Source: Candidatus Bathyarchaeota archaeon (lineage in GTDB: Archaea; Thermoproteota; Bathyarchaeia; Bathyarchaeales; Bathycorpusculaceae). From it: 64,000 nucleotides of DNA. Location of the stretch: NCBI GenBank assembly GCA_026014745.1, contig JAOZHS010000001.1, forward strand, positions 1,178,001-1,242,000. The letters are read 5' to 3'. The notes beneath the pieces were generated by a model that was not told the origin of the DNA, made no database searches, and saw only the letters and a list, made by a program, of their open reading frames with translations. Positions 1-26,773 of this stretch are shown here, in pieces (position 1 is the stretch's first letter; each line of letters begins with the position of its first letter). The position numbers were made by a program, and so were the translations under genes.

Positions 1-263
1 TATGTGAAGGTAAGGAAAGCAAACGCAAAGGGTCTTGCGAGAAGTTGGAACCAGGCTAAGTCATTAACCACAAACGTTGTTGTGTGTGCTAAAGCTGCCA
101 TCAGATACGAGAAGCCAAGAAAGCCAAACCCTAAAGGAAGACCCAAATATCGGCTTTCTCTGGTGATTTGATACGGTTTGATTAGAAACCACACGAGAAC
201 GAAGCAGGCAATAGCTGAAAAGAGTTCTTCTGAAAACAGAAAGATTGGGTCTGGTGCTGCTAT
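1..263 (-). CDS. Multi-pass membrane protein, 3' part missing (off left edge), probable ATA start
   Basis: An open minus-strand frame encodes a hydrophobic protein with at least two predicted membrane helices; the readable start is AAPDPIFLFSEELFSAIACF. The frame has a stop (TAA) shortly upstream and no ATG, GTG or TTG before the hydrophobic region. An in-frame ATA at 263-261 lies 7 nt after a GGAGG (275-271), and a TATA-like TTAAATATA lies about 45 nt upstream of it, which would give a short leader carrying the GGAGG. An ATG at 289-287 is in the wrong frame; one extra base in the adjacent G-run (287-282) would restore it, so an assembly indel is the alternative. The family is not recognised. 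The gene continues beyond position 1. Confidence 0.6.
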   Translation of the reverse strand, partial: MAAPDPIFLFSEELFSAIACFVLVWFLIKPYQITRESRYLGLPLGFGFLGFSYLMAALAHTTTFVVNDLAWFQLLARPFAFAFLTFT

Positions 264-21741: not shown

Positions 21742-23259
21742 TCAGGTTTTTTCTAAGGTGTTTTTAGGCAGCTTGGGTATTTTCGAGTTGGCTAAGGCTT
21801 CCTCGATGGTTTTGCCTTCGCTTACTTTCATATTGTAGGCAGCGGCGTAGTTGCGTGCGTTTTCTGTTAAGTTGGGAATCACAAATATCAGTGCGTCGCA
21901 GTCGACGTCGTTTATCATACCGTAGATGCGTGTCATCTCTTCGAGGTCAACGGGTTTGCTTGATATCAGGACTTGGATGACCGTGTTGCCGTTGTCTCGG
22001 CGAAGAACCGAACCCGTCAACACGCCACGTCTAGGCTCAACCCAACCCACTTTTCCTAGCAACAAGATATCAAAGAGATGCTGCGTTCCTGAGCGTCCAC
22101 TTACAAACGCGGGTGCCACAAAAGTGTAGCCTAACGCTTTGAAGAAGTTGGTGACAGCTTCGATGGGTTTTATCTGCTTTAGGTTCTTGGCGGGATTCTC
22201 AGCGTTGGGACTGTACTTGTAGAGGAGTAGTTCTGGTTCCTCGTCTAACTGCGCTGTTGCGCCGCAGTCGTCACATTTTATAACCAGCAAGGGGTCGCCG
22301 CTTCTGATATTGCAGCTAAGACACGTGTATGCTGGCGGCAGTATGCGGTAGTCGGAGCCGATGAGTTGAAGTTTACCTTTACACTTAGGGCAAATTAAAT
22401 CGCCGTTAGCGGATTCAAAGGCTGCTTGACGGTCCACGACGCCGCAGTCAAGGTGCTCGATTAAGCCTTCTTTACGGAGCCGTAGCGACATGCATTCAGG
22501 GCATAGTTTTTTAACTCTAACATTTGCAGAGCCACAAGCCATACAAATAATCACTTTATCGACAAGTTGAGCTTTAAGCATACCCTTGCGGACCAATGAA
22601 TCGAGGGCTTGCCGCATGCGTTTGGTTTCCCAATCTAACTGCGGAACGCCATCAAAACCATAGCCTTCCATCTTGCAGGCGCTTACAACTGGACTAATTT
22701 GGGTGACTTTACCATAGAGGAAAAGCTCCATGATAACCTGTTCGTCTTCAAGCAAGCATTGATCGGTAAATTCGGGTTCTGGCTCTTTGGATAGCAGCAT
22801 GATGTCTGTTCCGTTTTGGTTTTCGGTTTTGTTCAAGATTTTGTTAACAGATGCAGCTATGTCTTGTTTATTCTCGGAGCAATTAGCCTGTTTTTGTTTT
22901 TGGTGAGTTTGGTATTGGACGACTTGGAATGCTGAACCAAAACCAAGCGCTAAGGCTGCCTCAAATGTGCAAATCAAAACCAGCGCTACAGCGAAAGCTA
23001 AGTTGCTGCCTAACATGTTAAAGACTGGTAGGGCGCCTAAGTCGTAGTATAATTCGGAAAAGAAATTCAGGTTTGCTATACTTGAACTGTAAACCACTGC
23101 GGGAACCGCTAACCCCACCCCTGCAGCTGAAGCGAAAGTGGCTAACACAATGATTTTGCGGTTGACTGTTTTTAGGGGAGCTAACTCGAAAAGGACGCCT
23201 AAGATGCATCCGACGGTTAGCGCGAATAGTGGCGCGACGAATGAGAGTGTTGAAGTTAT
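21742..23259 (-). CDS. Membrane protein with TackOD1-like zinc domain and restriction-endonuclease-like C-terminus, probable ATA start
   Basis: About 505 aa if started at the ATA at 23259-23257; the first conventional start is GTG at 23148. The upstream 37 codons continue the hydrophobic region (APLFALTVGCILGVLFELAP), so they are probably real. Two or three N-terminal helices are followed by a linker, a winged-helix-like segment and a zinc domain with CMACGSANV ... CPEC ... HLDCG ... CPKC ... CLSC ... CDDC, matching TackOD1 of TACK archaea. The C-terminal 150 residues (HLFDILLLGKVG ... VIQVLISSKPVDLEEM ... ALIFVIPNLTENA) look like a restriction-endonuclease fold without a full ExK site. Likely a membrane-tethered sensor or signalling protein. 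Confidence 0.72.
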   Translation of the reverse strand: MTSTLSFVAPLFALTVGCILGVLFELAPLKTVNRKIIVLATFASAAGVGLAVPAVVYSSSIANLNFFSELYYDLGALPVFNMLGSNLAFAVALVLICTFEAALALGFGSAFQVVQYQTHQKQKQANCSENKQDIAASVNKILNKTENQNGTDIMLLSKEPEPEFTDQCLLEDEQVIMELFLYGKVTQISPVVSACKMEGYGFDGVPQLDWETKRMRQALDSLVRKGMLKAQLVDKVIICMACGSANVRVKKLCPECMSLRLRKEGLIEHLDCGVVDRQAAFESANGDLICPKCKGKLQLIGSDYRILPPAYTCLSCNIRSGDPLLVIKCDDCGATAQLDEEPELLLYKYSPNAENPAKNLKQIKPIEAVTNFFKALGYTFVAPAFVSGRSGTQHLFDILLLGKVGWVEPRRGVLTGSVLRRDNGNTVIQVLISSKPVDLEEMTRIYGMINDVDCDALIFVIPNLTENARNYAAAYNMKVSEGKTIEEALANSKIPKLPKNTLEKT

Positions 23260-23360
23260 AGCGGGTCACCTTTTATTTTGTTTTGAGCCTTCGACATGTA
23301 GACGACGGCAATGCCAATCCATGCGGATTAAACAGCAACAGTAGGGCTCACTTTGGACAT
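23256..23360 (-). pseudogene. Possible small single-helix protein gene with internal TAA
   Basis: Starting at ATG 23360, the frame reads MSKVSPTVAV, then TAA, then SAWIGIAVVYMSKAQNKIKG and DPL, ending in TAA at 23258-23256. The part after the internal stop looks like a membrane helix with a basic tail, so the ORF may be a broken or mis-assembled 34-codon gene. Its terminal TAA overlaps the ATA start of the next gene as ATAA. Evidence is limited to this reading. Confidence 0.3.
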
Positions 23361-23518
23361 AAGCATTTTTGAGAACCATGATTAACAAAACTTATCAAAA
23401 ATTATTTTCAAGCATGAAAAGAAAACCTGACAAAGCTTTTTGGCTCTAGGAACTCAAATTCTCAAACCACAATAAAAAATGAAAAATAAAGAAAAGGTGC
23501 CTAAGCACCCTTAGCTGC

Positions 23519-24626: not shown

Positions 24627-25454
24627 TTAGCCCAACTTGATTTCATAATCAAATGCAGAAGTCTGAGGGCTTAGGACATAAGCCATACCCGCCCACGCAA
24701 ACCGATTCTGGACCCTCTCACGACCACAAAAAAACTGTGCCCCCTCCCGCTGACTCATAGCAAAAGATAAACCAAAATCGACAGTTGAAAAACAGCCCCG
24801 CCCCGACGTAACTTTGGACCAGCCCCCCACAGTGGAGTCATCCTGATGACTACCCTCGCCATCTTGAAAATTTACGAAGAAGTCTGCACCTTGTTCATTT
24901 AAAAAAATTATTTCTCGGCAACCCTTCTGTTCAACAGAGGACACGTCAGCGTTTATTTTGATATTGCCCGGTTCAAGATGGTATGTAACAGTGATTTCGC
25001 CTTGCGAAGAGGCTTCAACGAAACAAGTCTTTATCCCCAAGGTTTTTCTTAGCATCATAACATAGTTGAAAAGAGAACTTGACTTCTTTTGGTTCAAGTA
25101 AGAGACCTCAAAAGCTCTGTGAAATACGCGGTAAACAGCGTTGTTGATGAACATGCCTTTTAGCTGTTTTTCTGACACCACATTTAAGCTGAAAACCTTA
25201 CGAATAATTGTCTCCTTGGCGTCTTGCTGCTCCAAAAAGACTGCGGCTTTACTGGAAAAAAAGGTTTTGTCAGCGTATTTTACTACTGGGACACCAAAAC
25301 CTGCGCCCTCCTCCACTAACTCGACGCCCCTATATACCAAGATTAACCCTTTTTGCAGTGCGGCAATTTCAAGGTTTTCTGGCCGATTGTCCGGGTAGAG
25401 TCTAATGCTTAGGTTTTGGTCAACTTGAAAAGTATACGGCTTCTCCAGTCTTAT
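24627..25454 (-). CDS. Protein of unknown family, probable ATA start
   Basis: About 275 aa. The frame extends from ATA 25454-25452 (GGTGG at 25466-25462, 7-nt spacing) through (M)RLEKPYTFQVDQNLSIR to the C-terminus; the first conventional start, TTG 25340, would drop the first 38 residues including this compact beta-rich beginning. The protein is soluble, mixed alpha/beta, with no signal peptide; the C-terminal half contains several short beta strands (KINADVSSVEQKG, GADFFVNFQDGEG). No family recognised. A CTG at 25448 is a second non-standard option. Confidence 0.55.
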   Translation of the reverse strand: MRLEKPYTFQVDQNLSIRLYPDNRPENLEIAALQKGLILVYRGVELVEEGAGFGVPVVKYADKTFFSSKAAVFLEQQDAKETIIRKVFSLNVVSEKQLKGMFINNAVYRVFHRAFEVSYLNQKKSSSLFNYVMMLRKTLGIKTCFVEASSQGEITVTYHLEPGNIKINADVSSVEQKGCREIIFLNEQGADFFVNFQDGEGSHQDDSTVGGWSKVTSGRGCFSTVDFGLSFAMSQREGAQFFCGRERVQNRFAWAGMAYVLSPQTSAFDYEIKLG

Positions 25455-25558
25455 CTAAATTCCACCAAAAACTTTAGCGCTTCTAAAGACGGTGCTTTGC
25501 TGTTTGGCAAAGTCTATCTTTAGGCAACAACAAAGTAGTAGATAGGAGGATTTAATCC

Positions 25559-26773
25559 TTAAGATTTTTAGATAAAAAACTATCCATATGGAAATTTGTT
25601 ATTCCAATACGGCTACTGATTCCCCTCTTAATAGTTGTGCTAATCAAAATTGCAGCTGCAACCTACATCTACTTCAGCCTCAACATCGGGATAGACGGCA
25701 CCTTCTGGGCAGACCCCACCCGAGTCTACAATTGGCCACAAAATCAAGCCCTAATCCAATACACTACAGGACCCGTTAGGTGGCCTCTGACTTTTCTGGG
25801 TTGGGATAGCGCATGGTACCTAAGCATAATGACCAATGGTTACGCAGTGTCAAATCAGAGTTATGCGTTCTCGCCTGGGCTACCATTCTTCGCCAATTCC
25901 TTAAACCTAGTCTTTTTGTCACCAACGGTTTCATTGGTTATTGTTACTTTACTTTTTGGGGTTCTCTGGATTCCGCTCTACCAACTATTTGCTGAAAAAT
26001 ATGTAAGTAAAGCGGGTGCCCTGCTGTCTGTGTTACTCTTGGCTTTTTCTCCTTACCTGTTTGTCTTCACAACAGTCGCGTATACTGAGGGTCTTTTTCT
26101 GTTTTTTGTTCTGGTTTCATGGGTTCTGTTGCAACGGGGTCACAGTGTTGGCGCCTCATTTATTGCCGCGTTGGCACCGTTGATGCGTATCATGGGCATA
26201 CTAATGATAGCACCGCTACTGTACAATGCCCTAAAAAGCCCCGTTCATCGACTTCGAAACGTGTTCCTGAGTTTTTTGCCTTTGGTGTCGCTTTTGGCGT
26301 GGTTTGCAAGTTTTGCTCTAAGCACGGGGGATATGTTGGCGACTTTTCACACAACCGAGTGGAGTCAACTATACTCGGTTAGAACACTAATTTTTGAAGG
26401 CTTCCCCCAGTATGGAGTCAACGCCTTTTCATACGGGGTATATCCAAGTGCGCCTGTGTTGACAGATTGGCTTTTTCCCTATGGTATCGTCGTATCCTTT
26501 GCCATACCTCTTTTGATGCTGGTTTTGCTTTGGAAAAAAGATAAAGCGCTGTGGCTTTATGCCGCGTTGGGCTATTTGGGGATTGCCGCTTTTGGCGCCA
26601 TCGCGTCCGCGCCCAGATTTTTTTCGGTTCTGTTTCCCCTTTGGATACCCCTCGCAGCCCTGCTCTCAGAAAACAAAAAATCCCTAATTGCCACCGCAAT
26701 CTTGTCTGGTCTCTTTTTGGTTGTCGCAGTTGAATTTTGGCTGAGTTTTTTGAGTGGAGAATTCGTTGCATAG
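25559..26773 (+). CDS. PIG-V-like mannosyltransferase (GT-C)
   Basis: 378 aa from GTG 25637 or about 404 aa if started further upstream. The motif GWDSAWYLSIMTNGY in the first extracytoplasmic loop and the following AFSPGLPF are hallmarks of GPI mannosyltransferase 2 (PIG-V)-like proteins, with about ten helices. The reading frame continues upstream as FLDKKLSIWKFVIPIRLL, completing helix 1. An AGGAGG at 25544-25549 lies 9 nt before TTA 25559-25561, but no ATG, GTG or TTG is available there. Function: transfer of a mannose or similar sugar from a lipid carrier on the outer side of the membrane. Confidence 0.8.
   Translation, partial: LRFLDKKLSIWKFVIPIRLLIPLLIVVLIKIAAATYIYFSLNIGIDGTFWADPTRVYNWPQNQALIQYTTGPVRWPLTFLGWDSAWYLSIMTNGYAVSNQSYAFSPGLPFFANSLNLVFLSPTVSLVIVTLLFGVLWIPLYQLFAEKYVSKAGALLSVLLLAFSPYLFVFTTVAYTEGLFLFFVLVSWVLLQRGHSVGASFIAALAPLMRIMGILMIAPLLYNALKSPVHRLRNVFLSFLPLVSLLAWFASFALSTGDMLATFHTTEWSQLYSVRTLIFEGFPQYGVNAFSYGVYPSAPVLTDWLFPYGIVVSFAIPLLMLVLLWKKDKALWLYAALGYLGIAAFGAIASAPRFFSVLFPLWIPLAALLSENKKSLIATAILSGLFLVVAVEFWLSFLSGEFVA

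Follow-up and report, generated by a model that had tools for sequence, protein, structure and literature searches.

Translation initiation in archaea is similar to the eukaryotic process, except that it makes use of Shine-Dalgarno (SD) sites, and GTG and TTG starts are, to our knowledge, accepted everywhere. The Bathyarchaeia are an archaeal class whose members are mostly uncultured. The genes described here appear to begin at ACG, ATA, ATC, ATT, or CTG, which, unlike GTG and TTG, lie outside the common ORF-calling start set; as at archaeal GTG and TTG starts, Met-tRNAi would be placed on a mismatched codon behind an SD. The conserved examples include nusA, metX, and a tubulin-like gene, none of whose products is, as far as we know, a known initiation factor.

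Among described systems, infC, which encodes IF3 in bacteria and starts at AUU, shares with these genes a conserved non-canonical start, a strong SD, and a place among the genes of the expression machinery, and it was the only gene that our method returned from Escherichia coli. Its autocontrol through AUU is treated as established where PMC9845219 cites Butler (1987). The infC-type trait of a conserved non-canonical codon under purifying selection is also found in the tubulin-like ACG, whereas the present genes are archaeal nusA, metX, and tubulin-like genes, and several codons rotate at one position. Non-AUG starts in chloroplasts are lineage-wide, gene-specific, and conserved, and have been read as a means of tuning expression (PMC9845219). 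In infC and in chloroplasts, where this has been measured, a weak start reduces expression or has a regulatory role (PMC9845219). In chloroplasts ACG is commonly edited to AUG, whereas here ACG stands beside CTG, ATC, ATA, and ATT, which is beyond such editing. Closely related prokaryotes in which CUG or AUU has taken the place of ATG were also described by Belinky et al. 2017 (PMC5622118), who found that 61,358 ancestral AUG starts, apparently annotated ones, had given rise to two CUG and one AUU; we, by comparison, found six exchanges among 285 ortholog pairs, and these include ACG, ATA, and ATC. An open-access literature search returned no account of conserved ACG, AUA, AUC, or CUG starts in Bathyarchaeia.

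We propose, with a probability of roughly 0.88, that in this lineage of Bathyarchaeia the ordinary initiator tRNA initiates at near-cognate codons whose position is set by a strong SD. The starts lie one substitution from AUG and are not GUG or UUG (ATA, ACG, CTG, ATC), and their positions coincide with homolog starts at one gene of the window, in six of the 285 ortholog pairs, and in nusA.

Genomes and Scoring

The window is 64,000 nucleotides long (G000:C1:1178001-1242000) and comes from a genome of 2.7 Mb that is divided into three contigs. Judged by its nusA gene, the nearest named relatives of this genome belong to the Bathyarchaeia and include Candidatus Bathycorpusculum. The sample comprised 2.4 Mb from three genomes, namely 1.244 Mb of G000 (46%), 0.8 Mb of G023, and 0.39 Mb of G022. 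Genes in G000 were called with a dicodon model trained on the genome's own long frames. Each in-frame codon from the upstream stop to the first canonical codon was scored for an SD 5-mer in anti-SD register, and codons were counted only where coding evidence reached a score of at least 2.5. The near-cognates were CTG, ATA, ATC, ATT, ACG, AAG, and AGG. The test covers SD-led genes, and leaderless non-canonical starts escape it. The anti-SD CACCTCC is present in G000, where the 16S tail reads GGATCACCTCCT.

Start Codons in the Window

The preliminary description of this DNA had proposed ATA starts behind ribosome sites for three genes of the window. All three are on the minus strand with gaps of 6-7 nt, and the codons and sites are where they had been placed:

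21742-23259, minus strand: gene for a 505-aa membrane-anchored protein, start codon ATA at 23257-23259
23266-23270, minus strand: SD GGTGA, 6 nt upstream of ATA 23257-23259, complementary to the 16S tail GGATCACCTCCT
1-263, minus strand: 5' part of a membrane protein gene, ATA at 261-263, SD GGAGG at 271-275, gap 7 nt
24627-25454, minus strand: 275-codon gene without a Pfam family, likely start ATA at 25452-25454, GGTGG at 25462-25466, gap 7 nt

Canonical starts had also been said to be missing, and indeed, read from its upstream stop as far as the proposed start, none of the three frames contains ATG, GTG, or TTG. The further claim that these are true starts, rather than the products of chance or of frameshifts, holds for 23259, where homologs carry ATG, and for 263 on the evidence of orthologs; at 25454 it is plausible and the exact start is unsettled.

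The product of the gene at 21742-23259 matches the Pfam family TackOD1 (E = 2e-34), while a match to Mrr_cat is weak and below the cut-off. A first contig scan of genomes with the 505-aa protein gave no matches. Five full-length homologs from the genus (47-62% identity) bear out the expectation of a homologous methionine, since all five have ATG exactly at the codon of ATA 23259, and their leaders mostly contain a site resembling GGTGA, GGGTG, or GAGTGA. The ATA precedes the first transmembrane segment, and GTG 23148 lies 37 codons inside the gene; homology begins at the ATA, and therefore GTG 23148 is internal to the protein. By this alignment ATA 23259 is the real start position. Among the homologs compared, ATA occurs there in one genome only; because it is thus known from a single assembly, the ATA may, in this gene alone, stem from an erroneous base or from a mutation that has destroyed the start. 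Two short reading frames lie nearby. One, of 37 codons (23266-23379, minus strand, ATG at 23379), is in frame with the gene and has its TGA inside the gene's SD, and the other begins at 23297 and has 13 codons, its stop TAA overlapping ATA 23257-23259. The arrangement could reflect translation coupling or chance.

The gene at 263 runs 412 bp past the edge of the window as a single open frame of 224 codons (G000:C1:1177589-1178263). The ortholog in G023 has GGAGG followed by ATC and ATA, with 53 codons that contain no ATG, GTG, or TTG, and that in G020 has GGAGG, an in-frame TAG, and ATC ATA, with an ATG three codons later, 20 nt from the SD. These orthologs, likewise without canonical starts, support ATA 263 as the start. 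A frameshift in the G run before the gene is ruled out, since orthologs that lack the run also lack canonical starts.

Homologs of the product of 24627-25454 (32-43% identity) align from residue 1-8. Most are longer with a variable N-terminus, several having GTG behind GGTG and 11-12 extra residues, and one has its start GTG two codons inside. The SD match of this gene is only a 4-mer. Because an in-frame TAG directly precedes the ATA, ATA 25452-25454 is plausibly the best start candidate.

Genome-Wide Excess of SD-Preceded Near-Cognates

Among genes without canonical starts in the three genomes, an SD precedes 17 of 286 near-cognate codons versus 20 of 1978 other codons (p = 6.7e-7). With the three genomes pooled, the strongest signal is that of ACG (9 of 30 against a background of 1%, p = 8e-11), CTG follows (3 of 21, p = 0.0015), and ATA is marginal (3 of 73 against the same 1%, p = 0.046); all these p-values are approximate, as positions inside one gene are partly dependent. 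The near-cognate excess became clear only when the count was confined to those codons ahead of the first canonical start that show coding evidence. For ATA by itself the signal is weak in this subset, and when every ATA behind an SD near any gene start was simply counted, there was no excess. What had been described as an ATA trait of the lineage stands as a lineage trait and falls as one specific to ATA: ACG leads, together with CTG, ATC, ATA, and ATT. In a control with the method retrained on 300 kb and 275 genes of E. coli MG1655, the sole match was the known ATT start of infC; the regions had been picked to contain infC and pcnB, and pcnB was missed, so that sensitivity is incomplete.

An independent view is given by 285 usable reciprocal ortholog pairs from the three genomes, in which 23 alignment columns set a canonical against a non-canonical codon with no canonical codon near. 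By eye, 6 of the 23 can be recognized as gene starts, either because SD-like leaders align there or because homology clearly sets in, and the rest are internal or unclear. The six exchanges are ATG/ATA (23259 of the window), TTG/ACG (metX), TTG/CTG, GTG/CTG, ATG/ACG, and TTG/ATC, and every one involves a near-cognate. Together with nusA, these counts would put near-cognates at some 1-2% of starts.

Conserved Near-Cognate Starts

In a gene of the Tubulin_2 family, 15 orthologs, one per species, have ACG (13), ATG (1), or TTG (1) in one and the same position. It is preceded by GGGATGTGAT, except in the ortholog with TTG, which has GGAGG instead. In a codon alignment of 13 rows the first codon is ACG in all 13. 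Of the 103 columns with an invariant four-fold-degenerate residue, just one has a single codon throughout, none of the 17 invariant threonine columns does so, and ACG is the rarest threonine codon. Since ACG is fixed in all 13 although the codon drifts in 102 of those 103 columns, the alignment indicates that selection is on the codon itself and not on threonine.

The start of the nusA-like KH protein is more mobile. Within the genus, CTG, ATC, or ATA comes after a leader GGAGGAAAAAA, with ATG in another species group, and the start is CTG in all three sampled genomes. Named Bathyarchaeia have ATG (52), CTG (8), ATC (6), ATT (4, one of which belongs to a distant methanogen), ATA (2), and GTG (1), and two loci (L212, L222) have ACG behind GGAGG if read one codon later. 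In all, about 25 Bathyarchaeia have CTG, ATC, ATA, ATT, or ACG at this start. The nusA tree, many branches of which are weakly supported, implies about ten changes of start codon, a single origin of ATT, and an apparent reversion to ATG.

In metX (loci L110-L123 and L327-L338, including those of sister genera), none of the 14 orthologs of the genus begins with ATG or GTG, and a single one begins with TTG; the codons are CTA (5), TTC (4), ACG (2), TTG (1), TTA (1), and GTC (1). The start is almost always 7-8 nt after GGAGG, and the next residue is mostly Thr, Ser, Ala, or Ile. Sister genera have ATA, ATT, CTC, TTG, GTG, or ATG at this position, whose distance from GGAGG is nearly constant across the loci, and the more distant family has GTG or TTG. 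The two-mismatch codons of metX are unexplained. It is conceivable, though doubtful, that in this bathyarchaeal family the start is fixed by the SD almost irrespective of which codon stands there, so that position or coupling, rather than codon-anticodon pairing, would decide.

Initiation Machinery and Proposed Mechanism

The components of initiation appear ordinary. G000 has 44 tRNAs, three of which carry a CAU anticodon, and one of these (L096) has initiator features, namely an A1-U72 pair and three G-C pairs (GGG/CCC) in the anticodon stem. An altered initiator tRNA with a UAU anticodon is ruled out by this standard CAU initiator. Loss of aIF1 as a cause of relaxed start choice is likewise ruled out, the SUI1 family (aIF1) being present in 29 of 32 genomes of the genus, including G000. 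Internal AUA codons align with Ile at 66% and with Met at 3% of 1269 sites, which rules out a code change of AUA to Met. Several tRNA genes of G000 contain introns, and one CAU tRNA (L104) has an insertion after the anticodon stem and was missed by ARAGORN.

Because the tRNA and factor set is ordinary and internal AUA is Ile, mismatched pairing of Met-tRNAi at an SD-fixed site is the likely route. The ordinary initiator (CAU) would read ACG, CUG, AUA, AUC, and AUU, each one mismatch from AUG, with a good SD 5-9 nt upstream setting the position, and would do so in about 1% of the genes. Some near-cognate starts, such as ATA 23259, would be recent single substitutions of ATG in one genome, and others, such as the tubulin-like ACG and the rotating weak codons of nusA and metX, would be old and kept by selection. 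The most likely reason is that a weak start would keep expression low or responsive to initiation conditions, and some near-cognates have probably been retained as weak or regulated starts. Coupling to an upstream gene perhaps assists the tubulin-like, metX, and nusA starts but not those of the window genes, whose distances are at least 141 nt.

Alternative Explanations

Translational coupling, in which a ribosome that ends the upstream gene restarts nearby at any codon suitably spaced from an SD, is the best of the alternatives and is nevertheless unlikely. The upstream stop lies 6 nt before the tubulin-like ACG, 21 nt before the start of metX, and 34 nt before that of nusA, and coupling would also accommodate the CTA, TTC, GTC, and TTA that stand beside near-cognates in metX. 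Against it, there is no close upstream gene on the same strand for 23259 (259 nt), 25454 (2652 nt), a signal-peptide gene (6149 nt), or a small membrane protein with an ACG start (3196 nt). As a general account coupling was rejected, since it suits some genes only.

Much less probable is sequencing or assembly error, whereby the true codon would be ATG, or an ATG further upstream would be masked by an indel, as might be the case in the short run of G that precedes the gene at 263. ATA 23259 is unique to G000, and a TrpE-TrpG-like fusion in the same genome (L053:10431-12431; G000:C2:70431-72431) has 128 codons without ATG, GTG, or TTG and no near-cognate SD start, so that a frameshift or pseudogene is possible there. 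The orthologs of the 263 gene also lack a canonical start, and non-canonical codons recur across independent assemblies (13 tubulin-like ACG, about 25 nusA, 14 metX without ATG or GTG). Because these assemblies conserve the non-canonical starts, the comparison rules out error for the trait as a whole.

Editing of ACG to AUG, or reading of AUA as Met throughout, is highly improbable. Such editing does create start codons in chloroplasts (PMC9845219), but CTG, ATC, ATT, and ATA at one nusA position cannot all arise from C-to-U changes, and a genome in which internal AUA aligns with Ile and one of three CAU tRNAs is a normal initiator does not suit a change of code. Starts further downstream, with the upstream part untranslated, are just as improbable, for although GTG 23148 and TTG 25340 exist, and had been named as the alternative starts, homologs reach the extreme N-termini of both products, ATG aligns with ATA 23259, and a downstream start would cut conserved sequence from the nusA, LysE-like, and tubulin-like proteins.

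Near-cognate initiation by the ordinary initiator tRNA has practical consequences. Gene finders restricted to ATG, GTG, and TTG would truncate, misplace, or drop about 1% of Bathyarchaeia genes, including the tubulin-like gene, nusA, and metX. How faithfully archaea select their start codons could be studied on the conserved cases, which nature supplies as ready test sets. At the nusA position in particular, ATG, GTG, CTG, ATC, ATA, ATT, and ACG precede a nearly identical protein, which would make codon strength and selection directly measurable.

Further Candidates

A fourth gene of the window also lacks a canonical start:

25556-26773, plus strand: AGGAGG followed by TCC TTA, with a hydrophobic segment; the evident N-terminus has no canonical start

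Its first canonical codon is GTG 25637, 27 codons in, and the coding score upstream of that GTG is positive. Homologs in the genus align from residue 72 onward only, and none was found for the N-terminal part. The gene is oriented divergently to that at 24627-25454. Outside the window, a frame at L079:12634-13146 has ATA behind GGAGG and a signal-peptide-like N-terminus, I/M-NRKTIAISLILLATLSAVSS, and is another candidate for an ATA start.
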